A DNA stretch of 64,000 nt from Oscillospiraceae bacterium (lineage in GTDB: Bacteria > Bacillota > Clostridia > Oscillospirales > Ruminococcaceae): contig JAUNSK010000008.1 in assembly GCA_030539275.1 (NCBI GenBank), forward strand, positions 62,001-126,000. The letters are read 5' to 3'. The notes beneath the pieces were generated by a model that saw only the letters and a program-made list of their open reading frames with translations, searched no databases and was not told the origin of the DNA. Positions 7,820 through 64,000 of this stretch are shown in pieces. The translations under genes were made by a program, and so were the position numbers. Each line of letters starts with the position of its first letter. Position 1 is the first letter of the stretch.

Positions 7820-7913
7820 TTTGTCCTCCTGATAATACTTTTTTGTTTTATAAATATTATACCATATAATTTTCTCGCAATAAATATTTAAACACCATAA
7901 TAAGTAAACTCAA

Positions 7914-7942
7914 TTTACTTTTATAAATATTCATGGTATAAT
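7914..7942 (+). promoter_or_regulatory. Candidate promoter for the P-loop kinase gene
   Basis: TATAAT at 7937-7942 with TTTACT (4 of 6) at 7914-7919 and a 17-base spacer. Confidence 0.6.
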
Positions 7943-7986
7943 CAGGGTAAATATCTACTTTAAGCTATGGAGGTGCAGTGGTTATT

Positions 7987-8490: not shown

Positions 8491-8524
8491 TCCCGAGACA
8501 GCAAAAAACATATTTAAATAAATT

Positions 8525-8567
8525 AATCCTCCATTATTCGTAACAGACGACTAACGGAGGATTTTTA
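8525..8567 (+). terminator. Rho-independent terminator
   Basis: AATCCTCC (8525-8532) pairs with GGAGGATT (8556-8563), followed by T's. It ends the kinase gene and can also serve the convergent ABC permease. Confidence 0.8.
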
Positions 8568-8604
8568 TATATTTTAAGAATCTTAAAACTATTTGAATTT
8601 ATGA

Positions 8605-9255
8605 TCAGAGATCCAGTGCACAGAAAGATTTTACTGACTTTTTATATGACACCAGTGTCAGCACCGCATAAATAACAATACCTGCAGCAAGTATAACAAG
8701 TCTGTACGGCATATCTGCAGAGAGTGTATTGTCAATATGCTCATGTACAAAAGGGATAGCAAATGAACAGGCTTCTGCAATAAGCATAGCTGCGAAATAA
8801 ATTATACTTGATACGGCAAATGCCTTGCCTACCTTGTCAGGATCTTTATAATACTTTGTAAAGAACACAAAATTGAATAATCCTAGCAGAACAAATGAAA
8901 TACCGAACATAGCTGCATTTGCATCCATACCTGCCTGATTCGGCGGAACAGATTTAAATGTACTTCTGAGAATTGCAAAAGGGAGTGCAAGAATGATCTG
9001 AGTAATTTCAAGGATAACTGCCATAATGAATCTTGCACTGACTACGCTGCTTTTTGCAACAGGAAGTGTCATTGTATAAAAAATATCATGATTTTCACGT
9101 CCGCCAAGACATATAAAGAAAATAGCCAGCGTCATGTAGAAAAATGTTACATAGTAAGGATAGTTAGGGATCAGCATCATCACTGCAAGCGCCATGAACA
9201 AAAATGCTGTCGGGTGCATGGCAAGCCTGAACTCTTTATAAAGCATGTTTTTCAT
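8605..9255 (-). CDS. ABC-2 type transporter permease
   Basis: About 216 residues with six hydrophobic helices. The start MKNMLYKEFRLAM is followed by a first helix and matches the small ABC2_membrane_5-type permeases of Firmicutes. I place the start at ATG 9255: an AGGAGG site lies upstream, inside the end of the ATPase gene, and only one base separates the two genes. Upstream in-frame codons lack a site. With the ATPase it forms a two-gene exporter, possibly for peptides or antibiotics; no substrate evidence is visible. Confidence 0.85.
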   Translation of the reverse strand: MKNMLYKEFRLAMHPTAFLFMALAVMMLIPNYPYYVTFFYMTLAIFFICLGGRENHDIFYTMTLPVAKSSVVSARFIMAVILEITQIILALPFAILRSTFKSVPPNQAGMDANAAMFGISFVLLGLFNFVFFTKYYKDPDKVGKAFAVSSIIYFAAMLIAEACSFAIPFVHEHIDNTLSADMPYRLVILAAGIVIYAVLTLVSYKKSVKSFCALDL

Positions 9256-17535: not shown

Positions 17536-20500
17536 ATGAAAAAAACTAGCTGGCGCTGCATAGCAGCATTCCTGGGTCTTACAATGAGCTTCAATCAGAT
17601 ACCGCTTGGTGCATTTGCACAGGAAACGGTTGAAGAAGCAAGCATGAATCAGGCATATCTTGAAAAGAGCGGATCTGTTGTCACTGTAAGAGATAATGAA
17701 TCAGGTGTTACAACCGTAAGGTATATGTATACTGAGCAGCCATATGAAGCCTCAACCTGGTACAACTACTATACTACAGGAAAACAAAACAGTACTGTAA
17801 ACACAACAGCCGGTTTCCGAAGTGTGACCGGAAAGGTCAACTCAGTGACCGGAATCTCATCACTTGACTTAAAAACAATCGATCTCTCTGTCGCCGGCTT
17901 CTATACTTTCTGGATCAACGACAGCAGCGGTACCCATTTTCAGTATTTTACCGTTGAGGAAAATGATCTGTTAGTAGAAAAACCGTATGTAACAGTTGAA
18001 GGAAACAATCTTGTCCTGCATAACAACTCAAGCAATCTTACTTCTGCAAACTGTATGTATACACAGGATACGTATACATATTCAACCTGGTATAATTACT
18101 GGAAAACAGGTCAGCAGAACACTTCCGTAAACGGGTCTGCTGGTTACAGAGGTATCAAAGATATCAATGCACCCTATGAATGCAGTGTCCCGGGATATTA
18201 CACAATACTGATGTCGTACGGCAGCGGACTTACCCGCACACAGACGGTCCGTGTAAATCAGTACAAAGCATCAGTTACTCTCCGCACAGACGGTATTCTT
18301 AATGAAATTACTTCTGTTTACAGCGGCAAACAGCTCGCCCTTCGCGACGGTGAGTCATATATTCCTATGACTTACACAGGAAAAGGAGTTTATACAGCAT
18401 CCGGACTTGGCAGTGACAGCTGTCAGCTCTATATTAAGGACGGCAGCACATACACCGCTTTTCCCGGTTCAGCAGCTGCAGTAACCTCCGGTACACGAAA
18501 TATTGAAGTTTCATTATATTCCGTTACTTCAAACACAAACGGTGCAGTCTTCAGCGGAAGTCCGTGCGCACGTTCAGGAGAGGTATATACAGCAAAGCTT
18601 ACTCCTAACACAGGAATGCAGCTTCCGGCATTTATCAACGTCCGTGTTGACGGAGGTACTCTCGCCTTCAACGAATACAGTTATGATAAAAGTACCGGAA
18701 TTGTCAGCATCCCACGCGCTGACGGTCGAATTTCTATTACGGCAGTCGCACAGGAAAAGACAGTACCGGTTACGATAACTCTTAACACAATGGGCGGCAC
18801 TGTTTATGACGGCAGCTGGCAGGACCGCGGAAACTACAACTACACCTACAATGCAAACGGTCTTACTCTCCTGCCGGTACCTGAAGCACCGTGTTCAAGT
18901 GAAACAATATCATTTGCAGGCTGGTATACTGATTTAGCGTATACAAATAAAGTCACATCGGCAAACTTTTCAACTGACACTACCCTGTATGCGAAATGGG
19001 TATATTCAAGTACTTCATATACATCAAACAGTATGTATTATGCTTATTCAGCAACTATGGCAGATGTCAGGGGCTACAGCAGCGGAAATTATATAAAAAC
19101 TACATACTCTAACGGCGGCTACAGAGCATTTTACTATTATAACGGCAACGCATATCCATATACCGCAAACGGTACAAACAATTATGGCGGTACTGCATTT
19201 TCCTTTGCATCAGGTACAGGTACCAGTATATTTAAGCAGATAGGAACTACAGGAATATACTATGCACAGGTTATGGCTGTAGAAGGAAGCTTTGTAACAA
19301 TCAACTACGTTATAGTCAACACAAAAACTACAGAGATAAAGAACTTCACTCTCGGTGCTGCCGCAGACGTTCAGATTGCTAGCAATGACCGTGCAGCGAT
19401 ATCTGTAGGCTCTGATGCCAACGGAACATATCTTGTTATGGAGGACGGAAGCACTTATGCGTTCCGTATGTACACCGGTTCAGGCAACTACTGGATAGGC
19501 GGTTACTCCTCAAGCTATTGTTACAACGGTTCAGGTTTTCAGTCCAACGTCTTCAACTCATCATCCATGAACTCAAATCACTATGACAGGAAGTTTTCAA
19601 ACGGCGTAGACTCTGCAATGGCATACAACTGGCTAAACCAGACCATTCCGGCAAAAGGCACCATTATAAGGACTGCAAAGCTTGGTGTAGGAACCATCAG
19701 CCAGATGGGTAAAAACTCCAGTACATCAGTAACTCTCAGCTCCAACGGCGGTTCATTCACTACCGGCACAGTCTATTCCTTGTCTGCAACCACAAAGACT
19801 CTTAGTCTGAGCGGTGCCCAGATCCCGGTCAGAAACGGCTATACTTTCACAGGCTGGAACACAAGATCTGACGGAAGCGGTACAGCATATAGTCAGAATT
19901 CATCCGTACCAAGCATAACGCTTTATGCACAATGGGTAAAAGACGCTGTTCCGATGTATACCGTTTATAACAAATCCCTTGTCAAGGATATTGACGGCAA
20001 TACACTTCCTTCTGCTACTGCCGGTATTCTTATTTCCTATGACAGCGGACTTATTTTACAGGGCTCAAATGCTTCTGAACTGGTAAATACAGAAGCTGAC
20101 TTTGCGGCAACACTGTCCATTACAAATGACAGCTACTGTCTGCCGGAAACTATTACAGTAACCGTCGGCGGTGTTACACTCCGTGAAGGCACAGATTATG
20201 TATACAGTCACTATTCCGGTGATTCCACAATGGCTAATCTTCTGATATACAGACGTGCACTTACCGCAAAGGTCGTAATTACTGCTGTTGGCACACTTGT
20301 TCCTGCAGCAGCACCCGAAATCACATTAACTAACTGGCGTGAGGCACAGCTCAGAGATACAGTTACGATCCCTGCAAATGTTGTAAAAGCTGCAAATCAT
20401 ACATATGCTTATCAGTGGTATATGACAGATAACAACACAAACAGCGGAGGAAAAGCACTGGCACAGTACACAAATACTCTGAAAGTTACCTCTGCAACAA

Positions 20501-23500
20501 CAAAGAATGCGGGCACATATTACTACTACTGTGTTGTAACTGCAACAAGAGACAACGGACAGAAGGCAAAAACGGTCAGTGATGTTGCGACTCTTGTAGT
20601 AAATAAAGCACAGCTGAGCGACATTACGGTCATAGTAGATGACCACGAAACAAGCCTTTCATCCAACCCCGGCGGCGGTGCTGTATCATATGAATACTTT
20701 ACCGATGCAGACTGCACACATAAAACTACATCTTCCGACGGTGCAGGTCTTGTCGGCGGCAAGCCAAGTGTAAACGGTACATATTACGTCAGAGCACTTA
20801 TCGCAGAGTCAGCCAGCTACTACAGTTATACAACCGCACCTTCTCAATATATCGTCAATGGTCTTCCATATATAGAACAGGACAGCAAGTATGCAACAAT
20901 CAGAAATAATGACAGTGCCCTGTCAACTGTTTTCTATATGTACACTCAGGATATATACTCCTACACCACATGGTATAACTTCACAGTAACAGGCAAACTC
21001 AATCCTTCCATTAACAGCAGCAAAGGCTATCTTGCTGTAAGCGGCACGGTAAACGGCCTCAGTTCTACTCTTGATGGAAAGACGATCACTCTTGATCATG
21101 CAGGTTACTATACCTTCCTGATGAAGTACAGGGACGGCAAAAGTACGCAGATGACCATACTGGTTACTGAAAATGATCTGCTGCGTGATCTGCCTTTTGT
21201 AACCCAGCAGTATATCAACGATAACTATGCGATAGTTGACAACAACAACAGCGGAGTATATAAGATATCATACATGTACACAGAGGACCCTTATACATTC
21301 TCTACAGTTTATAACTTTGCTGTTACAGGTAAACAGAATATCCAGGAAAACACCTCAGCCGGCTACAAAACAATAAAAGGTGAAACAGCACCCGGTGAAG
21401 GCCATAATATCACATCCACACTTGACGGCAGCAAAATTCTGATGTCCAGGGCTGGATATTACACATTTGTTATTACCTATGGTAACGGCAAGGTAGTCGC
21501 AAATACACTTCACGTTGGTAACGATATTTCCGAAGTCTCATCCCAGGGAATGAAAATCACCTACACCGATGAGCTTACATCAGGCACGCTCACACAGTAC
21601 AGCTATATGTACGCCGGAGACACGCAACCTGATATAACAGGTACATTTACATACAAAGCCAATGCAGCAGACAACACAGAAATAGTACGAAGCTCTGATC
21701 AGCAAACCGAATTCTCATTTATAGCTCAGAAAAACGGCTGGTATATTGTACGTGTACTTGATGATGTACTGGGAACAAAGTTCTATAAGGTACATGTTGA
21801 GCAGACACAGCAGACCGGTGCAGAAAAAGCAGTACTTATCGTAAACGGAACAAATATTTCTGCTTCTATGTTAAATGACAGTGATATTGTTTATGTCAAG
21901 TTCTCAGATAAGACGGATTATGTAAGAGGAAACCGACTCAAGGTAGACAATATCGGAATTTATACCGTAGACATGATCGACAGTGACGGATACAATCATA
22001 CTCTTGTTGCAAACATTCTCACCCTTAATCCGAACGATTCTGTTGATTACTCAAAGCTTACATCACAATTAACCACTTCACAGAAAGCTCTTACACTATA
22101 CCAGGCTGTTGATAATCCTCAGGCACAGACAATAGCAGGTTCATATGTTTCGCTCTCAGCAGTACAGACACTTAAAACAGCTATCCAGACTGCCAAAACA
22201 CAGCTTGAAGATGCAGTGACCCAGACTGATGTTGACAATGCATATAAAGAACTCAGAACACAGACAAATACATTCACAAATTCAGTCTATGTAATCAATC
22301 CTGAACTTGTATCAGTAAACGAAGACACTATCACAGTTTCACCGGCTGACCAGTCCTATTCACTTGAAAATGTAATATACAACGTAGATGACAACAAATC
22401 ACTTATGCCATATGTAATCAAGAGCTGGACCGGATTAAGTGCACGTCCTTACCTTTCAGTCAGAAACTTTGAAGACGGTAAACTGATACTGAGAAACGTA
22501 CCAAACGGCATTTACTCATTCTACATAAATCAGAATGAGAGCGGAAGCGTCAAGACATATGTCAGGTATGCGGTCGTAAGTAGCGGCTCTGATAAACAGA
22601 CTGTTGCAAACAGCGAACTCGACAGATATATTTTACAAGCAGATAACAGTCTTGCATCCTGCACACCTCAGAGTAATGCAGTGCCTGGTGACCTGTACGT
22701 AAGCGATGCTGTTTACAATAATCTTGTAAGCAGAATTGCAAGTGCAAAGACAATGGCACAGGCACTCAGTGAAGATCCGGCATGCAAAGATATTGACAAT
22801 GACATCATACCTGAACTCATTTACCTGCTTGATGCTCTCAAACAGGTTGACCAGAGTGCAAAGACGATGGAAGCGCCGATTGAGAATGATCCTGTAGTCA
22901 TCACAGTAAATAATGACACTACAGTTGATTTTGCAAGCACTAGCGTATCACATGCTTACGTCGCATACGGCAGATGCAGCAACTGGTATCAGATAAACAA
23001 ATCAGGCTACACAAAGCTTACCTTCCAGAACTCACAGGCAAGATTCTCAAATGCAAAGTACAACGGAACATACACAGCACTTGTAGTCTATACTGATGGT
23101 ACACAGGAATATAAGAACTTTGATATTTCCGGAATAGAATATCCATTCAGCGTTACTCAGGATAATGGTCTTATAAATATAGACTTCTCAGACAATACAA
23201 ACGTCACACGTGTCGGATATGGATTCGGAGAAATCAATGACAAGGATTCAAAAGACTTCTATGCACAGAACGTAAATGCAGGCTCTTCACAGCATACATT
23301 CCATGCAATGGGCAACGGACTTCACAGTGTATATGTACAGTACTCAAACGGTGATATTTACTACGTTACTATAAACGTTGACAGCTGTACAGCACCTGCA
23401 GTATTTGAACTTAACGGAAACCTCGGTGTATTTACCAACGGTTTTGATATTCAGTATGTAGGATATGCACAGGGCACTTTCAGAACCTGGAATGAGATGT

Positions 23501-23634
23501 ATGACAGCGCAAAATATGTAGATCAGAATACCTGGTTCCAGATGAACAGCTCCGGCGGTTTCACGCAGGGTTCGTCATACACTTTCTATTTCAGCGGCAC
23601 TCAGAACAGCTACATTGTTAATGTAACATTCTGA
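17536..23634 (+). CDS. Giant secreted repeat protein (2032 residues) of the surface polysaccharide locus
   Basis: A signal peptide (MKKTSWRCIAAFLGL to GAFAQE) leads a Thr/Ser/Asn/Tyr-rich extracellular protein. Modules seen: two ~110-residue repeats with a W-Y-N/T-G-K-Q-N motif centred on Trp75 and Trp185; two InlB-type/Flg_new beta repeats (~415-491 and ~732-802, ending TLYAKW and TLYAQW); an Ig-like domain (~922-1025, YAYQWYM to GTYYYYCVV); two more of the 110-residue repeats (at ~1146 and ~1258); and a helical FIVAR-like segment (~1506-1585). The C-terminus (SYIVNVTF) has no LPXTG, dockerin, SLH or transmembrane anchor. It may be an adhesin held by the polysaccharide made next door; this is inference. 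Confidence 0.85.
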   Translation: MKKTSWRCIAAFLGLTMSFNQIPLGAFAQETVEEASMNQAYLEKSGSVVTVRDNESGVTTVRYMYTEQPYEASTWYNYYTTGKQNSTVNTTAGFRSVTGKVNSVTGISSLDLKTIDLSVAGFYTFWINDSSGTHFQYFTVEENDLLVEKPYVTVEGNNLVLHNNSSNLTSANCMYTQDTYTYSTWYNYWKTGQQNTSVNGSAGYRGIKDINAPYECSVPGYYTILMSYGSGLTRTQTVRVNQYKASVTLRTDGILNEITSVYSGKQLALRDGESYIPMTYTGKGVYTASGLGSDSCQLYIKDGSTYTAFPGSAAAVTSGTRNIEVSLYSVTSNTNGAVFSGSPCARSGEVYTAKLTPNTGMQLPAFINVRVDGGTLAFNEYSYDKSTGIVSIPRADGRISITAVAQEKTVPVTITLNTMGGTVYDGSWQDRGNYNYTYNANGLTLLPVPEAPCSSETISFAGWYTDLAYTNKVTSANFSTDTTLYAKWVYSSTSYTSNSMYYAYSATMADVRGYSSGNYIKTTYSNGGYRAFYYYNGNAYPYTANGTNNYGGTAFSFASGTGTSIFKQIGTTGIYYAQVMAVEGSFVTINYVIVNTKTTEIKNFTLGAAADVQIASNDRAAISVGSDANGTYLVMEDGSTYAFRMYTGSGNYWIGGYSSSYCYNGSGFQSNVFNSSSMNSNHYDRKFSNGVDSAMAYNWLNQTIPAKGTIIRTAKLGVGTISQMGKNSSTSVTLSSNGGSFTTGTVYSLSATTKTLSLSGAQIPVRNGYTFTGWNTRSDGSGTAYSQNSSVPSITLYAQWVKDAVPMYTVYNKSLVKDIDGNTLPSATAGILISYDSGLILQGSNASELVNTEADFAATLSITNDSYCLPETITVTVGGVTLREGTDYVYSHYSGDSTMANLLIYRRALTAKVVITAVGTLVPAAAPEITLTNWREAQLRDTVTIPANVVKAANHTYAYQWYMTDNNTNSGGKALAQYTNTLKVTSATTKNAGTYYYYCVVTATRDNGQKAKTVSDVATLVVNKAQLSDITVIVDDHETSLSSNPGGGAVSYEYFTDADCTHKTTSSDGAGLVGGKPSVNGTYYVRALIAESASYYSYTTAPSQYIVNGLPYIEQDSKYATIRNNDSALSTVFYMYTQDIYSYTTWYNFTVTGKLNPSINSSKGYLAVSGTVNGLSSTLDGKTITLDHAGYYTFLMKYRDGKSTQMTILVTENDLLRDLPFVTQQYINDNYAIVDNNNSGVYKISYMYTEDPYTFSTVYNFAVTGKQNIQENTSAGYKTIKGETAPGEGHNITSTLDGSKILMSRAGYYTFVITYGNGKVVANTLHVGNDISEVSSQGMKITYTDELTSGTLTQYSYMYAGDTQPDITGTFTYKANAADNTEIVRSSDQQTEFSFIAQKNGWYIVRVLDDVLGTKFYKVHVEQTQQTGAEKAVLIVNGTNISASMLNDSDIVYVKFSDKTDYVRGNRLKVDNIGIYTVDMIDSDGYNHTLVANILTLNPNDSVDYSKLTSQLTTSQKALTLYQAVDNPQAQTIAGSYVSLSAVQTLKTAIQTAKTQLEDAVTQTDVDNAYKELRTQTNTFTNSVYVINPELVSVNEDTITVSPADQSYSLENVIYNVDDNKSLMPYVIKSWTGLSARPYLSVRNFEDGKLILRNVPNGIYSFYINQNESGSVKTYVRYAVVSSGSDKQTVANSELDRYILQADNSLASCTPQSNAVPGDLYVSDAVYNNLVSRIASAKTMAQALSEDPACKDIDNDIIPELIYLLDALKQVDQSAKTMEAPIENDPVVITVNNDTTVDFASTSVSHAYVAYGRCSNWYQINKSGYTKLTFQNSQARFSNAKYNGTYTALVVYTDGTQEYKNFDISGIEYPFSVTQDNGLINIDFSDNTNVTRVGYGFGEINDKDSKDFYAQNVNAGSSQHTFHAMGNGLHSVYVQYSNGDIYYVTINVDSCTAPAVFELNGNLGVFTNGFDIQYVGYAQGTFRTWNEMYDSAKYVDQNTWFQMNSSGGFTQGSSYTFYFSGTQNSYIVNVTF
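17680..18256 (+). repeat. Protein-level tandem repeats 1 and 2 (about 110 residues each)
   Basis: Two successive copies in the giant surface protein share YMYT/CMYT, STWYNY, TGKQN/TGQQN, an AGF/AGY box and a GFYTFW/GYYTIL strand. Copy centres are 110 codons apart (Trp codons at 17758 and 18088). The DNA is diverged, so this is old duplication rather than recent slippage. Confidence 0.75.
20875..21525 (+). repeat. Protein-level tandem repeats 3 and 4 (about 110 residues each)
   Basis: A second pair of the same module shows FYMYTQD/SYMYTED, TTWYNF/STVYNF, TGKLN/TGKQN and AGYYTFL/AGYYTFV. Copy 4 has Val where the others have Trp. Centres are 112 codons apart. Confidence 0.75.
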
Positions 23635-44093: not shown

Positions 44094-44148
44094 TAAATTG
44101 ATCTCTTTGCACTGCATTACATTCTCAGATGAATGCGAAATCAACAGT

Positions 44149-44276
44149 ACAAACTGAGCAGGCGATGAACTTTATTATACAATAAAGTCATGGGGCCGGG
44201 CCGCTTAAGACAACGGCAGCAGATGAAATTATTATTACATCTGTGGGACAGTTTTGTGTTCCACAGGTGTTTTTTT
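44149..44276 (+). promoter_or_regulatory. NiCo (czcD-type) riboswitch with expression-platform terminator
   Basis: Conserved blocks are in the known order: ACTGAGCAGGC (44153-44163), ATGA/TCAT of the second stem, GCCGGGC (44195-44201), CGGCA before CAGATGA, and ACATCTGTGGGACAGTT. P1 pairs AAACTG (44151-44156) with CAGTTT (44249-44254). The terminator pairs ACATCTGTGG (44237-44246) with CCACAGGTGT (44261-44270) before a T run. It uses the same strand the aptamer needs for CAGATG/CATCTG, so metal binding would block termination (ON switch). The class binds Ni(II) and Co(II) cooperatively; Fe(II) response has also been reported. Confidence 0.88.
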
Positions 44277-44361
44277 ATACCTTAATGAACACAAAGGCTG
44301 AAGGTAAAGTGCCATAGAGCTATCAACTGATTTGCAAATAAGCATAATGGAGGTAACTTTT

Positions 44362-46887
44362 ATGACAAACAACAAAGAAAACCTGACGGGACTTTCCTCG
44401 TCAGAAGCAAAAAAATTGCTGGAGCAATACGGAAAAAACGAACTGGCAGCACAGAAAAAAGAGAGTTTCATTAAAAAAATATTTCATATAGTCTGTGAGC
44501 CTATGTTTTTGCTGCTGATCGCTGCTGCAATTATTTATTTTATTCTTGGGGAACCAAGAGACGGCGCAATTATGCTGGTATTTGTTATCGGAATAATCAG
44601 CATAGATGTTATTCAGGAATGGAAAACAGACAAAACCCTGAACGCCTTAAAAGACCTTTCCGCCCCGCATGTTACAGTGATCCGTGATTCTCAGGAACAG
44701 CAGATCCCGAGCACTGAGCTTGTTCCGGGCGATCTTATGGTAATATGTGAAGGCGTTAAGATCCCTGCTGACGGCTGTGTTATTCAGTGTGCTGACCTGT
44801 GTGCAGATGAGTCGTCACTGACGGGAGAAGCACTCGGTGTATGGAAAACTCCTACAGACAACGTCTCTGCAAACGGCGAATATTTCAGACGTGATTACTG
44901 CTATGCCGGCACACTTGTTACACAGGGCACAGGTATAATCAGAGTCGAAAAAACAGGTTCACGCACTGAGTACGGTAAGATAGGGCTCGGAGTCGCTGCA
45001 GCTGTAAAGGAAGATACTCCTCTTCAGAAACAGACCGGGAAGCTTGTAACAACATGTGCAGTTATTGCCGGAATCCTGTTCATACTTGTAGGTGTATTCA
45101 CATGGTTTAATATTTCTGACCACAGTTTCGGTGACAGACTTATTGAAAGTATTCTGTCCGGCGTTACTCTCGCTATGGCTATGATCCCGGAGGAATTTCC
45201 TGTTATACTGACAGTGTTTCTTTCTATGGGGGCCTGGCGTCTGGCTAAGAAAAATTCACTTGTCAGAAAACTTCCGAGTGTCGAGACACTTGGTGCTGTC
45301 AGTGTACTCTGTGTAGATAAAACCGGAACTATAACAATGAACCAGATGACACTGCAGAAGACCTGGACAGCAAATTGTGATGAAAATACACTGCTTGAAA
45401 CTATGGGACTCGGATGTGAAACAGATGCCTATGATCCTATGGAAAAAGCTATGCTCGCTTACTGTGAAGAACATGATATTAAAAAGCAGGACCTGTTTTC
45501 AGGAGAACTGGTCACAGAGTATGCTTTTACAAATGAACTGAAGATGATGGGCCATGTATGGCGCAAAAACGAAAAACTCATTATTGCCGCAAAGGGCAGC
45601 CCGGAACGTATTCTGACGATATGTGATATAGACGATGAAGAACTTACGAAAGTAAAGAAGCAGATACAACTCTTGTCTTCAGAAGGTCTGCGTGTTATAG
45701 CAATAGCAAAAGGGACGCCTTCTGACGACACCATGATCCCAGCCTCACTTACTGACTGCCGTCTGACACTTCTCGGACTGGTCGGTCTTGAGGATCCGCC
45801 GCGTGAAAGTGTTAAAAAAGATATAGCTGTATGCAGCAAGGCCGGAATACGTGTAGTCATGATCACCGGCGACAACGGAATGACAGCAAGTGCGATCGCT
45901 AAAAAGGTCGGAATGCCAGACAGCGACAATATAATCACAGGTGACATGCTTGATAATATGAATGATGACGAACTTCGTAATGCTGTAAAGACCGTTTCCG
46001 TTTTTTCACGTGTAATTCCTGAACACAAAATGAGAATAGTCAAGGCCTTCAGAGAAAACGGTGAAATTACCGCGATGACAGGAGATGGCGTAAATGATGC
46101 ACCGGCGCTTAAAAATGCCGATATAGGTATTGCAATGGGCAAACGAGGAAGTGAGGTCTCACGTGAGGCCGCTGATCTTATTCTGCTTGATGATAACTTT
46201 ACAACAATAGTTGAAACCGTAAGAGACGGACGCAGGATCTATGACAATATAAGAAAAGCCGTAGGATATGTTTTTACCATTCATATTCCTATCGCATTTG
46301 CCTCTCTTCTCGCACCGTTTCTTGGCATTGCTCCCGGAGCACTGCTTCTGCTTCCTCTGCATGTAGTGCTTCTTGAGATCATGATAGACCCTACATGTTC
46401 TGTTGTACTTGAACGACAGCCTGCCGAAACAAACATTATGGACCGCTCGCCGAGAGATCCGAAAGAAAAAATGCTGTCGTCAGGGCTTCTTGTAAAAAGT
46501 GTTCTTCAGGGACTTTTTATTTTTGCGGCTTCGTTCGGATCATATTTTATTACGCTCGCAGGAGACCAGGTCAATGCTCCTGCTGCTCGCAGTATCGGTC
46601 TTACTGTTATTATGCTTGCAAACCTGTTTCTTGTTCAGGTTAACAGTTCTGACACAGATTATGCATTCCGCTGTGCGGCAAGACTTGTAAAAGACAAGAT
46701 AATGTGGGCCATTAATATAGGCACACTGATTCTTCTGGCAGTTATTCTTTATTCCCCGCTCAGCTCAGTACTGAAACTGTCTGCACTGTCTCCCTCTGCG
46801 CTTCTTGCCGCTTTCGGGCTCGCAGCTGTCAGCGTACTCTGGTATGATATCGTAAAGCTTATCAAAAAATCCGGAAAACTCAGATAA
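44362..46887 (+). CDS. P-type ATPase, predicted transition-metal exporter
   Basis: About 841 residues with a P2-like layout: N-terminal cation-ATPase domain, actuator with ESSLTGEALG, phosphorylation Asp319 in CVDKTGTITMN, the nucleotide-domain motif KGSPERIL, hinge MTGDGVNDAPAL, and six C-terminal helices. The M4 motif is IPEEFPV instead of PEGLP, and M6 reads LEIMIDPTCSVV, with no N/D-rich calcium site of the usual type. No CPx motif and no heavy-metal-associated domain. Start: ATG 44362 behind GGAGGT, not upstream codons. The NiCo riboswitch in its leader predicts Ni, Co or Fe as substrate. Confidence 0.9.
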   Translation: MTNNKENLTGLSSSEAKKLLEQYGKNELAAQKKESFIKKIFHIVCEPMFLLLIAAAIIYFILGEPRDGAIMLVFVIGIISIDVIQEWKTDKTLNALKDLSAPHVTVIRDSQEQQIPSTELVPGDLMVICEGVKIPADGCVIQCADLCADESSLTGEALGVWKTPTDNVSANGEYFRRDYCYAGTLVTQGTGIIRVEKTGSRTEYGKIGLGVAAAVKEDTPLQKQTGKLVTTCAVIAGILFILVGVFTWFNISDHSFGDRLIESILSGVTLAMAMIPEEFPVILTVFLSMGAWRLAKKNSLVRKLPSVETLGAVSVLCVDKTGTITMNQMTLQKTWTANCDENTLLETMGLGCETDAYDPMEKAMLAYCEEHDIKKQDLFSGELVTEYAFTNELKMMGHVWRKNEKLIIAAKGSPERILTICDIDDEELTKVKKQIQLLSSEGLRVIAIAKGTPSDDTMIPASLTDCRLTLLGLVGLEDPPRESVKKDIAVCSKAGIRVVMITGDNGMTASAIAKKVGMPDSDNIITGDMLDNMNDDELRNAVKTVSVFSRVIPEHKMRIVKAFRENGEITAMTGDGVNDAPALKNADIGIAMGKRGSEVSREAADLILLDDNFTTIVETVRDGRRIYDNIRKAVGYVFTIHIPIAFASLLAPFLGIAPGALLLLPLHVVLLEIMIDPTCSVVLERQPAETNIMDRSPRDPKEKMLSSGLLVKSVLQGLFIFAASFGSYFITLAGDQVNAPAARSIGLTVIMLANLFLVQVNSSDTDYAFRCAARLVKDKIMWAINIGTLILLAVILYSPLSSVLKLSALSPSALLAAFGLAAVSVLWYDIVKLIKKSGKLR

Positions 46888-57085: not shown

Positions 57086-58033
57086 ATGAAAAGAAAAATA
57101 TTTTTGACCTTTATATGCGTACTATTTATATCTCTGATGGTTATTCTCTCTCAGACACTTGGTGAACCTGAGATCATATTTCCGGAGGTCGCCGCGCTGA
57201 CTATCGGCGCATGGCTTGCGCCTGTCCCGGTCTGGAAAACGACCAGGCTTAAAATGAGCCTGCTCATCACTGCAAATGCATTTCTTGGCGTTGTTTTCGT
57301 AAGATATATTGATGCACCCGTTTTTATTAAAACAGGTGCACTTATTCTGATATGCTATGCTCAGCTTGATTTATTCAAAACGTCATTTGCACCTATGATA
57401 TGTGCCGCTGTTCTGCCTGTATACCTTGGCACACGATCATGGATATATCCTGTAAGTGCAGCTTGTTTTGTCGTTACCGTTTGTTTCATTCAGTTTATTA
57501 TGGAGAAAACCGGATTTAAGAGCCCGTATCAGGGACATACAGACTCAGGAATAAGCATAAGGCAGTTCTCAAGGCGTATTAAACAGTGGGCTGTACTGAT
57601 GGTAATTGCTTTTGTTCCTATTGCGGCAGATGATCTGTTCTTCATAGCGCCCCCTCTTCTCGTGGGGTTCACAGAACTCTCAGATCCCGCAGGCGGTGCG
57701 AGAAAACATCCTGTAAAACTCGTTGTACTGACTGCCTGCTGTGCCGGAGCAGGTGTTCTCTGCAGATACATATTTACAATAACCCTTGGACTGCCGCTTG
57801 CTGTCAGTGCATTTGCTGCGGCTTGTACCGTTGCGATAGTTATGCAGTATACACATCTGTTTTTTCCGCCTGCAGGAGCCATAACCATACTGTCCATGCT
57901 TATACCACAGCAGCAGCTTATCTTCTATCCTTTCAAAGTCTGTGCCGGGTTTACAGCCCTCACTCTTGCAGCAATATTCCTGTTTCGCAGTAACGTTAAA
58001 GAACTTTCTGTTTCTCAGAAAAAATCTGCCTAG
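57086..58033 (+). CDS. HPP-like integral membrane protein
   Basis: 315 residues with about ten hydrophobic helices in two similar halves (EPEIIFPEVAALTIG early; FFIAPPLLVGFTELSDPAGG later), and FFPPAGAITILSMLIPQQ near the end, recalling the HPP family of possible nitrite or anion permeases. The assignment is tentative. It follows the MFS gene by 78 bases and overlaps the convergent flavoprotein gene by four bases. Confidence 0.65.
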   Translation: MKRKIFLTFICVLFISLMVILSQTLGEPEIIFPEVAALTIGAWLAPVPVWKTTRLKMSLLITANAFLGVVFVRYIDAPVFIKTGALILICYAQLDLFKTSFAPMICAAVLPVYLGTRSWIYPVSAACFVVTVCFIQFIMEKTGFKSPYQGHTDSGISIRQFSRRIKQWAVLMVIAFVPIAADDLFFIAPPLLVGFTELSDPAGGARKHPVKLVVLTACCAGAGVLCRYIFTITLGLPLAVSAFAAACTVAIVMQYTHLFFPPAGAITILSMLIPQQQLIFYPFKVCAGFTALTLAAIFLFRSNVKELSVSQKKSA

Positions 58034-58572
58034 ATATTAAGTCCCAGCTTATAAGCATCAGCCAGAAGCGGATTTCCCTCTATATCTCCGATATTCTGTA
58101 CACCATGTACTGTAACCATTCCGCCGTCTTCCAGCGAAAAGTAACTGAGCACAGATCTATACATGACTCTTATCGAATCAAATACACTGTCGCTGTCATC
58201 AGCACAAACACTCAGAAGCGCAAGTTTCCTGACCTTAAATGTATTTCTTACAGGGTTATGTAGTCTGTCTATAAGACATTTTATCTGAGCACTGACACTG
58301 TAGAAATAAACCGGAACAGCTACTACTATAACATCAGCTGCGGCAAGCTTCTCATAGCATTCCTGCATATCATCCTTTACTGCACATCTGTGCGCAGGGT
58401 CTTTATAGCAGTAATTGCAGCCGCAGCATGCAGCTATCTTCTTATCTGCCGCTCTGATGATCTCTACTGTGTTCCCGGCCTCGAGTGCTCCTTTTACGAA
58501 CTCTTGCGTGAGTCTCTGTGTATTTCCGTTCCTGCGTGGACTTCCTGAAATCAAAACTATATTCTTGCTCAT
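58030..58572 (-). CDS. NADPH-dependent FMN reductase/flavodoxin-fold protein
   Basis: 180 residues. The FMN phosphate loop is SGSPRRNGNTQRL, a Cys-rich patch (CCGCNYCYKDPAHRC) resembles iron-sulfur flavoproteins, and VPVYFYSVSAQIKCLIDR is the second flavin contact. It is downstream of the ECF transporter S gene (74 bases) and could be the last gene of that operon, where a reductase might act on the imported corrinoid; this is inference. It could equally be an independent gene. Confidence 0.85.
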   Translation of the reverse strand: MSKNIVLISGSPRRNGNTQRLTQEFVKGALEAGNTVEIIRAADKKIAACCGCNYCYKDPAHRCAVKDDMQECYEKLAAADVIVVAVPVYFYSVSAQIKCLIDRLHNPVRNTFKVRKLALLSVCADDSDSVFDSIRVMYRSVLSYFSLEDGGMVTVHGVQNIGDIEGNPLLADAYKLGLNI

Positions 58573-58646
58573 ATCGGTCTGTTCCCTTCATTATGTTGAA
58601 TAAGAGATAAACGGTGTTTATTAAGCCGTCTTATCTCCTTTTTTGT

Positions 58647-59339
58647 CTATTCATTGACGCCATATTTATTTCGTATTCTAATAAGCTTTGCTTTAAGCGG
58701 TTTATAGAGCAGAAGACAGAATACAATATTCCCTGCCCCGTGAATAAAGTTAAAAAGCATTGAAGCAGAATATACCCCCAGTATAAGTCCGGTGCTCAGT
58801 CCATCCTGCGAGATAAATGATATTGTCCATGTATCAGTTATCAGTCCGTAAATAAATGCCATAACAAACGACAAAACCGCCATAAAAAAAATATTGTCTG
58901 AAATTTTTCTGTTTTTAAGCATGCCGCATATAAGTCCTGTCATTCCCCATCCAAGCATCTGCCAGATTGTCCATGGTCCCTGACCGAGTATCATGTTTGA
59001 AATAAGTGCACTTAGTGCACCCGTAATAAATCCCGTATATCCCCCGAAGCAGACACCCATTACCATTATTATTACTGTAACCGGCTGGATCTGAGGAATA
59101 AAGCTGAAGAGAACACGACCTGCTGATGCACATGTACACATAACGGCTACAGGCATAACATCCTTCGCTCGCGTGCTTCTGTTTTCAAAGCCTGAAAAAA
59201 GATCTGAGAGTATCAGAAGACAGACTGCCGTACTGGCCAGAGTGTAGTTTACACTTTGAGGGTTCGCAAAAGTATATGCACAAACTGAAGCAATGACTGC
59301 AGCAGTTAAAATATTTACTGTTATTCTTCTTTTCGGCAA
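58647..59339 (-). CDS. ECF transporter substrate-binding S component (CbrT-like)
   Basis: 230 residues with six hydrophobic helices. The middle (GVCFGGYTGFITGALSALISN, GQGPWTIWQMLGWGMTGL) is typical of ECF S components. The start is TTG 59339: GGGAGG lies ten bases upstream, inside the end of the ATPase gene; an ATG nearby is in the ATPase frame. Next to the duplicated ATPase and the T component it fits the predicted cobalamin transporter CbrTUV. Specificity is inferred from the transcobalamin-like proteins in the operon. Confidence 0.85.
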   Translation of the reverse strand: MPKRRITVNILTAAVIASVCAYTFANPQSVNYTLASTAVCLLILSDLFSGFENRSTRAKDVMPVAVMCTCASAGRVLFSFIPQIQPVTVIIMVMGVCFGGYTGFITGALSALISNMILGQGPWTIWQMLGWGMTGLICGMLKNRKISDNIFFMAVLSFVMAFIYGLITDTWTISFISQDGLSTGLILGVYSASMLFNFIHGAGNIVFCLLLYKPLKAKLIRIRNKYGVNE

Positions 59340-60937
59340 CGTCTCATTACCTCCCTCAGCGTCACTGCATCAGGCATTATATTTTTGACCAGCTTATTTA
59401 CCTGAGTTGTATAATAATAGTTATCGCAAAAAAAGCGGGAAGGCTCTTCGCATGATATGATCTGACCGTCAAACAGCATAGCACATCTGTCACAGCACTG
59501 TGCGGCAAACTCAAGATCATGAGTTACAAGTACAGTACAGATATTTTTCTTCCTGAGCCCTGTAAGAATATCTGCAAGCGCTGTCTTTGCTTTTGCATCA
59601 AGGCCTTTAGTAGGTTCATCCATCAGAATGATAGTCGGATCAGTCAGCATTATTTTGAAAAAAGCCAGCCTCTGCATTTCCCCTCCGCTCAGGTCCATCG
59701 GATTTTTGTCTATTGAAAGAAAAATATCTTTATAAAAGTCAGATGATTCAAGAAGCTTATAGGTATCATCTTTACTTTTATTATGAAGACGGGCAGTATA
59801 CGCAATATCCTCTCTGACACTTGATTTAAGAAACATTCCGGCAGGATTCTGAGGCATAAATACCACACGCCCGTCCGGGACAGATACCTTTCCGCTGTAC
59901 AGCCGCAGAGAGCCGCAAAGTACAGACAAAAGCGTTGTCTTGCCTGATGCATTTGCCCCTGTCAGTGCAAGTATCTCACCCCTGAAGCCCGTCAGGGAAA
60001 TATTCTTCAGAATATCTCTGCCGTTTCTCAGATATCTGAAATATCCTTTTTTAATTTCAAAAGCTTTCTGGGCTTTTATTTTTTCTTTTTGACGTGGCTT
60101 TAGGATTTCAGGTCTCAGTTTACTGATCATCTCTTTTGCAAGTGCATTTGACATAATAATTTCCCTGTCGCCGAAAAGAGCATGACACAGCTGAGTGCAT
60201 GAAGGAAGAGACGCTTTCATGGTTACGTCGTTTTTAAGCATGTAATTTGCAGCAGCCTGCGGTGTATCATTGCATATAATTTTTCCCTGATCCATCAGTA
60301 TTACTCTGTCTGCTGCACTATAGACATTTTCAAGATTGTGTTCACAGATGATCACTGTCATACCCAGATCCTTATTGAGTTTTCTTACAGTATCTATAAA
60401 ATTTTCTCTGGCTACAGGATCAAGCTGGGCTGTAGGTTCATCGAGCACCAGGACTTCCGGCCTCATTGCAATAACTGCAGCCAGATTTAAAAGCTGCTTC
60501 TGTCCGCCTGACAATACACTTATTTCTTTATTATACCACGAGGCAATGCCGAAGTAATATGATATTTCTGCTGTCCTGCTTCGTATTTCACGTGCATCAA
60601 GTCCTGTATTCTCAAGTCCGAAAGCAAGTTCTGATGATACCAGGTCTGTAACGATCTGTGCGTCCGGTGACTGAGACACATAACCTATATCAGTGACAAG
60701 TGTCCTTTCATCTGTCTGAGTTACATCTTTTGAGTTATACAAAATATATCCTGACCTTGTACCATGAGGTGCAGTGATTTGCTTGATACATTTTAAAAGC
60801 GTGCTTTTGCCGCAGCCTGATCTTCCTATAACAAGATTGAAGCTTCCTTTCTCAATGCCAAAACTTATATTGTCAAGAACATTCTGAGCACTTCCGTTAT
60901 ATGAGAAACTCAGATTTTTGACTGTAATAATCTCCAA
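59321..60937 (-). CDS. Duplicated ECF ATPase (two ABC domains, CbrU-like)
   Basis: About 538 residues with two complete ABC units in one chain. Unit 1: Walker A GRSGCGKSTL, signature LSGGQKQLL, Walker B VLVLDEPTAQLD. Unit 2: GANASGKTTL, LSGGEMQRL, IILMDEPTKGLD. It equals EcfA1-EcfA2 fused. I place the start at TTG 60937, seven bases after GGAGG; it overlaps the EcfT gene by 28 bases. It powers uptake through the T and S components. Confidence 0.9.
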   Translation of the reverse strand: MEIITVKNLSFSYNGSAQNVLDNISFGIEKGSFNLVIGRSGCGKSTLLKCIKQITAPHGTRSGYILYNSKDVTQTDERTLVTDIGYVSQSPDAQIVTDLVSSELAFGLENTGLDAREIRSRTAEISYYFGIASWYNKEISVLSGGQKQLLNLAAVIAMRPEVLVLDEPTAQLDPVARENFIDTVRKLNKDLGMTVIICEHNLENVYSAADRVILMDQGKIICNDTPQAAANYMLKNDVTMKASLPSCTQLCHALFGDREIIMSNALAKEMISKLRPEILKPRQKEKIKAQKAFEIKKGYFRYLRNGRDILKNISLTGFRGEILALTGANASGKTTLLSVLCGSLRLYSGKVSVPDGRVVFMPQNPAGMFLKSSVREDIAYTARLHNKSKDDTYKLLESSDFYKDIFLSIDKNPMDLSGGEMQRLAFFKIMLTDPTIILMDEPTKGLDAKAKTALADILTGLRKKNICTVLVTHDLEFAAQCCDRCAMLFDGQIISCEEPSRFFCDNYYYTTQVNKLVKNIMPDAVTLREVMRRCRKEE

Positions 60938-61797
60938 TGTATATCCTCCAGTACACAAATTGCAATCGGAATACTATAGAATACTGCTGATAAGCCAAAT
61001 AAAGTTATCTGTCTGTATGATATTGCGTAAATCTCTATCACCGGATAAAAACTGAAATCAGCTGTATGCTGAGTATACATCACAATGTAATAAACTAAAA
61101 ATGCTGCCGTTATTAAAAGCATGGCAAAATCACACGTCCTGAAAGTATAGAACCCTCTTGTCGACTTGTTTTTCAGTGAATACCCTCTTGCAGTCATACT
61201 GTCAGCCGTCTCCATGGTATCCTCGAGCGTAACTGAAACAAGGACTGACATAACAGAAGCTGAATTTTTCAGACGCTCTTTAAGTGTCCCGTCTGAAGCG
61301 CAGACACCGAGTGTTCTCTGGACCATAGTGATCTCACTGAGTTTCTTTTTAAAGTACGGAATAAATCCGGTCACCATACGTATAAGCAGCGACGACTGAG
61401 GAAACTTTCTGCCGAACAGAAAGATAAACTTGTCATTGCCAAGTGTTTTATGCCATATTCCAAACCATAGTATCATTACAGCTATCAGCAGTCCTGCATA
61501 CATTCCGTATAATATGGATTCAAGTGTAACAGGCCTGTCATTTATATAGAGTACAGGCGTATCACCTCTGTGACTCAGAAGAGATGAAACCAGAGCAAAT
61601 ATCGCTGTCATTGAAATTGAAGTAAGAAACTGTTTTACAGCTGTCTTTACTCCTGAAACATAAGCAGAAAAAATAAGAGCACAAAAAAAACCTGTAACCG
61701 TAACTGCAGGATGGTCAAATACTACAGTCACAGTTATCAGAGTCAGAAAATAAATAAGAATGCATGACGGATGAAAATCCGAAAAATGATTTCTCAA
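60910..61797 (-). CDS. ECF transporter T component (EcfT/CbrV-like)
   Basis: About 295 residues. Five or six hydrophobic helices plus the long coupling-helix region between them; the conserved MTARGYSL is the A-R-G motif that docks on the ATPases. A GTG at 61809 lies within the TGAGGTG ribosome-binding site, so TTG 61797 (ten bases away) is a better start. It couples the duplicated ATPase to the S component. Confidence 0.85.
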   Translation of the reverse strand: MRNHFSDFHPSCILIYFLTLITVTVVFDHPAVTVTGFFCALIFSAYVSGVKTAVKQFLTSISMTAIFALVSSLLSHRGDTPVLYINDRPVTLESILYGMYAGLLIAVMILWFGIWHKTLGNDKFIFLFGRKFPQSSLLIRMVTGFIPYFKKKLSEITMVQRTLGVCASDGTLKERLKNSASVMSVLVSVTLEDTMETADSMTARGYSLKNKSTRGFYTFRTCDFAMLLITAAFLVYYIVMYTQHTADFSFYPVIEIYAISYRQITLFGLSAVFYSIPIAICVLEDIHWRLLQSKI

Positions 61798-61830
61798 AAT
61801 ATAGTACACCTCAAAATATCTCTGTCATAA

Positions 61831-62607
61831 TCAGACAGTATATATAAATTCAACAATGTCTGAGTCATTAAGTATATAACCGCTCGCACCGGTCATTACT
61901 TTCTCTCCGTTTACAGTATATACCCAGCCGCTCATGCTTCCGCAGTCTTTTTCATACAACCCGTTTATCCCTGTAATATAAACTGTTTTCCTGGATTCAT
62001 TACCGCTATAGTCAAATTTTATATTATTTTCATTGCATGCCTGCCTTATAACACTGAATACCGTTGAACCCTGTTTGACGTTTACCGATACACTATCCAG
62101 AATTATTCCGCTTTGCGGCACAGTATCACTATTTTTAGCACTGTCAGCAAGCTTATCCCAGTTATCCAGTGCACTGTCACACCTTATCGAGATGCTAACA
62201 GAAATTTTGTTTTCCTGTTGAGTCTCTGTCATAGCCTCACCGTCTGTAGCAGGTAATGCCGCCTGTTCATCTGATAAGCTGTTATCAGTCTGTATTTCTT
62301 CAGATATATGACTGTCGGCGCTGTCTGAGGCCCCACCCTGCTTCACATTTTCCTGCTGCTCAGGTGCAGCAGCCGAATCATCTGATAACTGACTTTTCTG
62401 AGTAACAGAACCTGATGCCGGTCTTGTATCAGATGTCAATATCTCAGAAGAAACTGATGTCTTTTGTACAGACGTGATCTGTGTTGTCACTGACGTTTCA
62501 CTCTGTCTTAACTTTTCATCATGTGCTCCGGCCGTTTCAACTGAACATCCGGCAAGTATAAAACATAACAAAGAGCTTGCAGCAGTTATTAAAATCTTCT
62601 TATTCAT
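61831..62607 (-). CDS. DUF4430 lipoprotein (transcobalamin beta-domain-like)
   Basis: About 258 residues. The lipoprotein signal has lipobox LAGC. A long Ser/Thr/Gln-rich linker spans ~25-135. The C-terminal DUF4430 domain follows: SVFSVIRQA-type helix (VFSVIRQACNENNIKFDY), ITGINGLYEKDCGSMSGWVY, and the final YILNDSDIVEFIYTV. DUF4430 is the fold of the beta domain of transcobalamin and intrinsic factor. GTG 62610 or ATG 62607 may be the start. Anchored on the outer membrane face, it likely caps or hands over a corrinoid to the ECF transporter. Confidence 0.85.
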   Translation of the reverse strand: MNKKILITAASSLLCFILAGCSVETAGAHDEKLRQSETSVTTQITSVQKTSVSSEILTSDTRPASGSVTQKSQLSDDSAAAPEQQENVKQGGASDSADSHISEEIQTDNSLSDEQAALPATDGEAMTETQQENKISVSISIRCDSALDNWDKLADSAKNSDTVPQSGIILDSVSVNVKQGSTVFSVIRQACNENNIKFDYSGNESRKTVYITGINGLYEKDCGSMSGWVYTVNGEKVMTGASGYILNDSDIVEFIYTV

Positions 62608-62666
62608 CACATATAACCTCTGTTTTCATAACAGTTTTGTGTTTTACACTTTATAGTCTCATGTCA

Positions 62667-63875
62667 TCAGTTCTTCTTTGTGCCGCTCATCACGAGTGCT
62701 GCAAGTGCTATAACACCTACAACAGCTGCCATACCTGATTTTGCAGTATCAGATGTCGCAGGTGACTGACTTACTGCAGTCTGTTTTACGCTTGTTGCTG
62801 CCGGTGCTGATGTTACCGTCGGCTGCCCCTGCTGCCCGGCCTGCGTTGTAACCGGTGTCGTCTGAGTTGTTTCAGTTTTGTTATCAACAAAACTTACATC
62901 AGAAAAATCATACAAAGGCTTCATATCATGCTCCATACGATAAATGGCTGTCAGACCAAGAAGAGCCTGAGATGTTGTATAATAGTCAGCACCTGCATCT
63001 ACCCCATAGTAAGGTTCATAAAAACCGCCATTGTCAAGCTCAAACATCATCAGTCCGTCAACCAGACTTTTTCCTGACTGCGCAGTAAACTCTGCATACT
63101 TATCCTCATCAAGCATAGCAGCACTTATCAGACACTGTGCTGTACTTGACGGATTAGCAGCACCCCACGATGCTATTGCACCATCGTCTCCCTGCTGTGA
63201 TCTGAGATAAGCATAACTGTTTTCTATTGCTTTATTTATCTCATCAGAATTATCGATCAGTCCCAGCACCTGGATCGTCTGAGCTGTTGTATCAGGATCA
63301 ACTGATGCATATTCACCTGTCATATAGGTAAAGCCTGTGTCATCCATGTATCTTGTCATTATTTCAGCGCAGACTTTTTCTTTAAGACTCTGGGCATCTG
63401 CAATCTTATCACTGTATAAATATATCATATCAAGTGCATATGCAAGCGTACTTGTTGAACTGTTCTGATAGTCAGTAAAATCAAGACTGCTTATTTTGCT
63501 GCACAGGTCATATCCTGCAAAATCCGTTACATCACGGCCCATAGCAGTAAGTGCCATCATTACCCTGATATAATCATTCAGACTCTGATTCCCCTTTGAA
63601 TCCTTATATTCTCCGTCTTTAGCTTTCAGGTCCTCTGCGGCTGACAAGTAATACTTATCAAGAACACCTGATACGGACGTGTTGCCGCTTCTTGCAAGTG
63701 CAATAATATACCATTCATCTCCGAACTGCTGTGAACCGTCAGCAAACAGTGTATTTACCGTATAACCGATCGTCCTGTTCAGACAGCTGTCGGATGCTGT
63801 ATCAGCAAATACTGAATTTGATACCGCACATATCATAACAATAACTGCTGTAAACGCGCTAATTAATTTTTTCAT
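62667..63875 (-). CDS. Secreted alpha6/alpha6-toroid protein (prenyltransferase/squalene-oxidase-repeat; transcobalamin alpha-domain-like)
   Basis: About 402 residues. Signal peptide (MKKLISAFTAVIVMICAVSN to VFADT), then ~300 residues of paired helices with repeat motifs DEWYIIALARSG, DPDTTAQTIQVLGLI, PSSTAQCLISAAM and YYTTSQALLGLTAIY. A Thr/Pro/Gln linker, a SPATSDTAKSG motif, a hydrophobic helix and KKN resemble a variant sortase signal. Start ATG 63875 has AAAGGAAG upstream. This fold forms the alpha domain of B12 carriers; with the DUF4430 lipoprotein next door it suggests a split surface corrinoid-binding protein. Confidence 0.85.
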   Translation of the reverse strand: MKKLISAFTAVIVMICAVSNSVFADTASDSCLNRTIGYTVNTLFADGSQQFGDEWYIIALARSGNTSVSGVLDKYYLSAAEDLKAKDGEYKDSKGNQSLNDYIRVMMALTAMGRDVTDFAGYDLCSKISSLDFTDYQNSSTSTLAYALDMIYLYSDKIADAQSLKEKVCAEIMTRYMDDTGFTYMTGEYASVDPDTTAQTIQVLGLIDNSDEINKAIENSYAYLRSQQGDDGAIASWGAANPSSTAQCLISAAMLDEDKYAEFTAQSGKSLVDGLMMFELDNGGFYEPYYGVDAGADYYTTSQALLGLTAIYRMEHDMKPLYDFSDVSFVDNKTETTQTTPVTTQAGQQGQPTVTSAPAATSVKQTAVSQSPATSDTAKSGMAAVVGVIALAALVMSGTKKN

Positions 63876-63898: not shown

Positions 63899-63932
63899 AA
63901 AAAATCCTTATTCGTGTCGGTGAATAAGGATA
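63899..63932 (-). terminator. Leader terminator hairpin ahead of the corrinoid-uptake operon
   Basis: On the minus strand ATCCTTATTC pairs with GAATAAGGAT around an eight-base loop and is followed by eight T's, only about 25 bases before the first ribosome-binding site. A complementary TCGGTGA/TCACCGA pair (63983-63989 with 63917-63923) could form an antiterminator. It may be the 3' end of a riboswitch lying mostly outside the window, or the terminator of an upstream gene. Confidence 0.65.
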
Positions 63933-64000
63933 AACAAAGATACTGATGCATATAAAAACACATACATCACACCTGTCAATCCTCACCGAATGAAAAGTGT

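Follow-up and report, generated by a model that had tools for sequence, protein, structure and literature searches.

A riboswitch-preceded, probable corrinoid transporter operon with a predicted split transcobalamin-type surface trap in an Oscillospiraceae bacterium

Why should the genes of a vitamin transporter be preceded by genes for two surface proteins that recall the two domains of the vertebrate vitamin B12 carriers? The question is raised by a minus-strand cluster of six open reading frames (ORFs) in a 64,000-nucleotide stretch of an Oscillospiraceae bacterium (assembly GCA_030539275.1, contig JAUNSK010000008.1). The whole stretch, bases 62001–126000 of the 135862-base contig, is referred to as the window. 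From position 63875 down to 58030 the cluster encodes an alpha/alpha-toroid protein, a DUF4430 lipoprotein, three parts of an energy-coupling factor (ECF) transporter, namely EcfT, a fused double ATPase EcfA-EcfA and an S component, and a flavoprotein. A preliminary description of the locus had given these six genes and their order, which the ORF list bears out, and had proposed that the surface proteins capture a corrinoid and hand it to the transporter. We consider it probable that the cluster is a riboswitch-controlled corrinoid import operon fed by a naturally split trap of the transcobalamin type, whose two parts would bind the corrinoid. Gene order, riboswitch, relationship to CbrT, domain types, fusion in relatives and genome context were all obtained by computation.

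A cobalamin riboswitch (RF00174, 64.4 bits against a gathering threshold of 31.5, full-length model match) precedes the toroid gene in the same orientation. Its aptamer corresponds to window-equivalent positions 63991–64170 (contig 125992–126171; 5993–6172 of the retrieved locus L002). The sequence left of the minus-strand start had been named as the place where a switch for a different ligand would speak against corrinoids; it contains the cobalamin class, and a search of the genome returned this match as the only one to RF00174. Between aptamer and toroid start codon lies a hairpin followed by a run of T (Table 1); a terminator hairpin behind the aptamer is expected of a transcriptional off-switch in this riboswitch class. 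Directly 5' of the aptamer, outside the window (L002 6173–6201), is a promoter-like TTTACA-17-TATTAT that agrees with the consensus in 10 of 12 positions; it comes from a consensus scan only, which gave 16 such sites in the region, a number not above that of shuffled sequences (mean 19.6). A tRNA-Trp gene follows past the riboswitch on the same strand.

The transporter genes point to the same substrate class. The S component is recognised by PF07155 (E 8e-11); its nearest named family is the riboflavin S component in Pfam and, below cut-off, the folate S component in NCBIfam. Among solved structures the best phmmer match is 6fnp_A (E 2.5e-10), and a profile of 29 syntenic S components finds 6fnp at E 1.2e-21, followed by 4hzu_S (2.8e-6) and the riboflavin uptake protein 3p5n (7.7e-4). 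The S component is thus nearer to CbrT than to the other vitamin S components with solved structures, in keeping with the earlier comparison of the gene layout to the predicted cobalamin transporter CbrTUV. The entry 6FNP is ECF-CbrT, which restores cobalamin- and cobinamide-dependent growth of an E. coli mutant (excerpts of PMC5997447). The EcfT of the window matches the Pfam family CbiQ only below threshold (E 0.56); four of five syntenic homologues pass the cut-off, and one of the closer ones (L083) fails it. With two ABC domains in the double EcfA, and EcfT identified via its homologues, a complete set of EcfT and two ATPase domains is present. If the earliest starts are used, both the EcfT/EcfAA and the EcfAA/S pairs overlap.

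Of the two surface proteins, the lipoprotein passes the DUF4430 profile (PF14478; cut-off 23.8 bits, score in Table 1) and carries a lipobox, LAGC, read by eye. DUF4430 is the domain family of the transcobalamin beta domain, and the domain has been noted in transcobalamins, or TCN proteins (excerpts of PMC4350170). The window protein was aligned with its relatives; its best sequence match in the PDB is transcobalamin-1, with an E-value (0.068) that is not significant alone. A search of the genome gave no second DUF4430 match. The toroid protein has a signal-peptide-like start and a hydrophobic C-terminal tail behind the motif SPATS (both read by eye); together with five sortase matches in the genome, this would fit anchoring by sortase. 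Pfam gives sub-threshold matches only (SQHop_cyclase_C, E 0.015). AlphaFold predicts a confident alpha/alpha toroid (pLDDT 92.7, pTM 0.91), the fold of the transcobalamin alpha domain, and a Foldseek search with this model lists the transcobalamins 2v3n (E 2.5e-4) and 2bb6 (E 5.1e-4) at ranks 23 and 28.

The same neighbourhood recurs in other genomes, hence a chance grouping is unlikely. Among 197 genomes searched within the family, 55 have a toroid match, the genome of the window included, and wider stretches, some of which stop at contig ends, were retrieved around the matches of 40 of the 54 others. With component profiles built from these very loci, all five components (toroid, DUF4430, EcfT, double EcfA and S component) are found in 24 of the 40; toroid and DUF4430 occur together in 34 and the toroid alone in six. 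A further set, the named loci, consists of the best 80 of 538 confirmed matches of a motif search with the DUF4430 alignment, picked by similarity to the window-type DUF4430 and hence not a sample of all DUF4430. These best 80 of 538 contain the toroid in 70 cases, EcfT in 69, the double ATPase in 59, the S component in 54 and all five components in 48; by title they are mostly Clostridia, with two Coriobacteriia bins and one Bacillales bin. The suggested co-occurrence of the surface proteins with the ECF genes is thereby borne out, and the order recurs. Irrespective of context, 121 of the 398 genomes sampled from the phylum carry DUF4430. It also occurs in two control genomes, Lactococcus lactis and the archaeon Methanosarcina acetivorans.

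Riboswitches accompany many of these clusters. Rfam scans took in 38 of the 40 same-family loci (L071 and L074 were left out) and found a cobalamin-class riboswitch in 17, namely RF00174 in 15 and AdoCbl-II in two, in every case on the strand of the cluster genes and 5' of them. RF00174 was further sought in 50 of the named genomes, picked for available upstream sequence; 40 of these 50 genomes with the cluster have a match, 37 of them above cut-off. Here contigs were assigned by coordinates and strand instead of by name, and matches outside the retrieved stretch were dropped before counting (L084, L095, L098, L131, L148, L149, L153). In 25 of the 50 genomes a switch bearing a core motif precedes an ORF for a toroid, DUF4430 or Ecf protein by at most 1.5 kb. 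When the motif is not required the number is 29, and in 19 of these 29 the match is the only one in the genome. Outside both counts are L087, L103, L112, L123, L134 and L149, where the switch is more than 1.5 kb from, or without, a next cluster ORF; some of these may be misassigned. The core motif was picked after reading the intervals and occurs in 29 of 41 places, compared to 78 of 5000 random 190-base windows. Corrinoid-linked regulation is hence seen in the window's own locus and in related ones.

We note that a pattern, CCACTG..., had before served as a check of the mapping and was found in only three of 37 intervals; since seven of the unmatched intervals, when read, held sequence that reads as cobalamin-riboswitch-like, the pattern and not the mapping was judged faulty. 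Two Anaerosalibacter loci (L084 and L095) have several RF00174 matches in series ahead of successive toroid and DUF4430 genes, and in three reordered clusters (L123, L047, L063) the riboswitch is followed first by the Ecf genes and then by those for the surface proteins.

That the two surface proteins act together is suggested by their fusion in relatives. In 13 of the 40 same-family loci a single ORF contains both domains, the toroid preceding DUF4430, and in three more the order is reversed (counted by the best domain per ORF; a cruder count by the last listed domain gave 12 of 40). In the window the two domains are encoded by two genes. Three toroid-first proteins of named genomes (L075, L079, L100) have hydrophobic stretches between the domains, as would result from the joining of two anchored proteins. 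In a fourth, L104, the domains are joined directly by a linker of about 20 residues (by eye). Gene joining commonly marks joint function, and the one-ORF proteins and the short-linker fusion suggest joint action here. Each of the best 15 PDB matches of a model of the L104 fusion (E 2.4e-9 to 1.5e-6) is to transcobalamin, intrinsic factor or haptocorrin, with the next structural class only at E 1.7e-4. Its DUF4430 part, as distinct from that of the window protein, superimposes on the beta domain of human transcobalamin (5no0/5np4) at 1.9–2.0 A over 89 columns, with a TM-score of 0.69–0.70 normalised by target. Confidence in this part is lowered as only three fused relatives were in the alignment, because MAFFT failed to align toroid-only, DUF4430-only and fused proteins jointly. 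In the L100 locus, an ORF between the riboswitch and the fused carrier (7805–8704) encodes a protein that looks secreted and has a membrane segment at its C-terminus; by eye it resembles a divergent DUF4430 protein.

The means of attachment varies. SLH domains are found in three of the four large relatives scanned and a dockerin in one of seven, with dockerin-like tails in others (by eye); such variation would fit a role in surface display. By regular expressions, which are crude, 58 toroid-only ORFs contain a sorting-signal pattern in three cases and another hydrophobic C-terminal segment in 30, and 72 split DUF4430 ORFs contain the lipobox pattern in eight and only a hydrophobic N-terminal stretch in 59. 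With counts so low and crude, lipoprotein and sortase anchoring are not to be generalised from the window. One ORF (L149, 3–7937; 2645 residues) combines PQQ-type beta-propeller repeats, toroid, DUF4430 and SLH domains and adjoins another toroid–DUF4430 pair; its propeller is reminiscent of BtuG.

The genome context agrees with a need for imported corrinoid. The genome encodes a MetH-like protein with S-methyltransferase, pterin-binding and two B12-binding domains (the score is below the NCBIfam metH cut-off, and the ORF is truncated at the end of the retrieved stretch), a B12-binding radical-SAM protein, five weaker B12-binding matches and a CobA/BtuR corrinoid adenosyltransferase. In the assembly, which is 96 percent complete and makes these negatives provisional, there is no match to CbiD, to a PduO-type adenosyltransferase or to the FecCD/BtuC permease family (PF01032) that would mark a BtuCDF importer; BtuM and other CbrT-like S components were not searched. 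As far as gene content tells, with CobU, CobS and CobT not searched, the organism thus seems to require corrinoid and to lack its de novo synthesis.

From these observations we infer a course of events that extends from the direction of the switch to the hand-off. When corrinoid is scarce, the riboswitch would let transcription past the terminator, as in a cobalamin-repressed operon. The cell would then display the anchored toroid protein and the membrane-bound DUF4430 lipoprotein of transcobalamin beta type; the two would close on a corrinoid within their ligand range, and the closed pair would present it to the S component. A precedent exists in human transcobalamin, whose alpha and beta domains, when expressed apart, assemble only upon addition of cobalamin (excerpts of PMC5599065). 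By analogy, the window may encode a naturally split transcobalamin, that is, two separately anchored surface proteins whose closing requires cobalamin and which pass the vitamin to an ECF transporter of CbrT type, with the vertebrate carriers and bacterial traps sharing descent; we put this stronger version forward tentatively, as a possibility that falls somewhat short of an even chance.

Several results weigh against the corrinoid trap. In Foldseek as well as in the sequence-profile search with the toroid, terpene cyclases and others outrank transcobalamin, and the VIA list agrees, so the toroid alone is not specifically transcobalamin-like: cyclases are nearer by fold and by sequence. The Pfam family Cobalamin_bind matches only one of 32 toroids (E 0.0026). 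The profile of the DUF4430 domain finds nothing in the PDB at E 1. The arrangement of the two domains in the fusion model is uncertain (pTM 0.70) and not transcobalamin-like, with an rmsd of about 22 A. Neither RF00174 nor AdoCbl-II is found in 21 of the 38 scanned same-family loci, some of which stop at contig ends, and under strict filters 10 of the 50 named genomes with the cluster have no RF00174 match. Finally, the toroid of the window departs from its relatives at two positions of the aligned fragment, with Glu at 263, where 59 of 65 rows have His, and Ser at 219, where 61 of 65 have Glu; it might recognise another corrinoid or serve a different function. The proposal of two transcobalamin domain types on separate surface proteins therefore stands as regards domain types and their fusion in relatives, but not as regards a toroid that alone is nearer to cyclases; likewise, the predicted structures agree with transcobalamin in the top matches of the L104 fusion and its beta part but not in domain arrangement. 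Capture and hand-off are made more plausible by riboswitch, CbrT kinship and fusions, and less so by the unspecific toroid and the deviating arrangement.

The departures at conserved sites also bear on what is imported. The operon might serve corrinoid precursors or cobamides other than B12, for example cobinamide, with carriers that discriminate among corrinoids. CbrT also transports cobinamide (excerpts of PMC5997447), but as no CbiD was found, the early steps of corrin synthesis seem to be missing (CobU, CobS and CobT were not searched), and we regard this alternative as rather unlikely, at about one chance in a few. Slightly less credit is due to a linear relay, in which the importer takes up cobalamin but the surface proteins form no clamp and each binds corrinoid, or a corrinoid–protein complex, in turn; Gram-positive haem relays offer a comparison. 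The separate anchors of the two proteins, the varied attachment of the toroid and the extra DUF4430-like proteins in a number of loci would fit such a relay, while the toroid-first one-ORF proteins and the short-linker fusion, together with the joint binding by the human domains (excerpts of PMC5599065), suggest joint action instead. The preference for cyclases in the fold searches raises the question whether the toroid is instead a secreted enzyme, terpene-cyclase-like or active on glycans, that has no more than the operon in common with the importer. The catalytic motif of class II terpene cyclases is DxDD; in 65 aligned toroids the residue after the invariant Asp171 is never Asp, and a D.DD occurs elsewhere in only four. 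As operon position, riboswitch and fusion to DUF4430 also point to corrinoid, an enzyme, checked here by the cyclase motif and not for catalytic sites of glycan enzymes, is very improbable, and a riboswitch-controlled import operon with a split corrinoid trap is the reading we retain.

The flavoprotein at the end of the cluster, mentioned in the preliminary description, is present, yet a search at E 1e-3 gave no homologue in the 40 related loci, not all of which extend far enough to cover that position. A role as conserved reductase partner was rejected on this ground; the gene is possibly co-transcribed but probably not part of the conserved system. It is convergent with, and overlaps by four bases, a plus-strand gene (57086–58033) for an HPP-family membrane protein (Pfam TM_HPP exactly at cut-off). 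Elsewhere on the plus strand, a nickel/cobalt (NiCo) riboswitch (44144–44253, 75.2 bits) lies directly 5' of a gene for a P-type cation-transporting ATPase (44332–46887), likely a metal exporter, and an ORF of 2032 residues (17536–23634) with Listeria-Bacteroides (Flg_new) repeats probably encodes a large surface protein.

Table 1. Features of the minus-strand cluster, in window coordinates.
Feature	Position	Strand	Basis or remark
Riboswitch aptamer, 3' end (RF00174)	63991..64000	-	final ten bases of the 180-base aptamer; remainder past the window edge
Intrinsic-terminator-like hairpin	63904..63931	-	between aptamer and toroid start codon; 10-pair stem, then T run
Alpha/alpha-toroid surface protein	62667..63875	-	ORF; AlphaFold model; Foldseek and VIA-align toroid matches
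DUF4430 lipoprotein	61831..62607	-	PF14478, 63.6 bits
EcfT, energizing-module transmembrane component	60910..61809	-	CbiQ sub-threshold; syntenic homologues 4/5 above cut-off
Fused double ATPase EcfA-EcfA	59321..60958	-	two ABC_tran stretches; TIGR04520, 318.5 bits (cut-off 315)
S component, CbrT relative	58647..59339	-	PF07155; phmmer and profile matches to 6fnp
FMN-reductase-like flavoprotein	58030..58572	-	FMN_red, E 8e-26

Should the proposal hold, the operon may illustrate the way in which many Gram-positive anaerobes acquire B12, and the toroid–DUF4430 pair would correspond, in bacteria, to the B12 carriers of humans. A recurrent, riboswitch-marked pair makes a direct binding test possible and provides a testable function for DUF4430. 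A truly split transcobalamin would mean that the B12 carriers of vertebrates, three in number, and the corrinoid traps on bacterial surfaces go back to a common ancestor, and that Clostridia widely use such traps in split, membrane-tethered as well as in directly fused forms. If binding were tight, the traps could, speculatively, even take B12 in competition with the intrinsic factor of the host.

Annotators have earlier suspected that cobalamin ECF systems include a lipoprotein. The Lacticaseibacillus rhamnosus protein K8Q211 is annotated as 'Additional lipoprotein component of putative cobalamin ECF transporter' in a table of PMC9963975, which also places the L. rhamnosus DUF4430 protein LGG_02295 beside rtpR. 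The comparison of K8Q211 with the window lipoprotein is one of annotation, not of sequence, and the excerpts of PMC9963975 state no link to a toroid or to transcobalamin. Apart from this annotation, the accessible portions of the open-access literature contain no link of DUF4430 to bacterial B12 capture and describe no toroid–DUF4430 pair as a bacterial B12 carrier; excerpts of PMC7478625 hold nothing on carriers. What is new, as far as sequence tells, is the putative split transcobalamin-type trap, while the cobalamin ECF importer is of an already known kind.

CbrT was reportedly predicted by the 2009 ECF survey of Rodionov et al. Its solved representative, ECF-CbrT of Lactobacillus delbrueckii (6FNP; excerpts of PMC5997447), is the nearest solved relative of the S component and shares the ECF architecture and the corrinoid link via a riboswitch. 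It differs from the system described here, where EcfT and a fused double ATPase lie inside the same operon and two surface proteins are added; no surface carrier is described in those excerpts. CbrUVT, listed among B12 transporters in the portion of PMC6593275 that is accessible, resembles the window in its set of EcfT, ATPase and S component, a comparison by gene names and not by gene layout. As regards the proposed role, the closest parallel is surface capture of corrinoid by BtuG and BtuH of Bacteroidetes, which feeds a membrane importer. BtuG is a beta-propeller that works with BtuB, and no toroid or DUF4430 is mentioned in the excerpts of PMC6977713. As regards domains, the parallel lies with transcobalamin, intrinsic factor and haptocorrin, which combine an alpha/alpha toroid with a DUF4430-type beta domain in the order also seen in the fused relatives. 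In contrast to that family, the proteins of the window are bacterial, are two separately anchored chains with a very divergent toroid, and are linked to an importer instead of a receptor, for which they are predicted to act as carriers.

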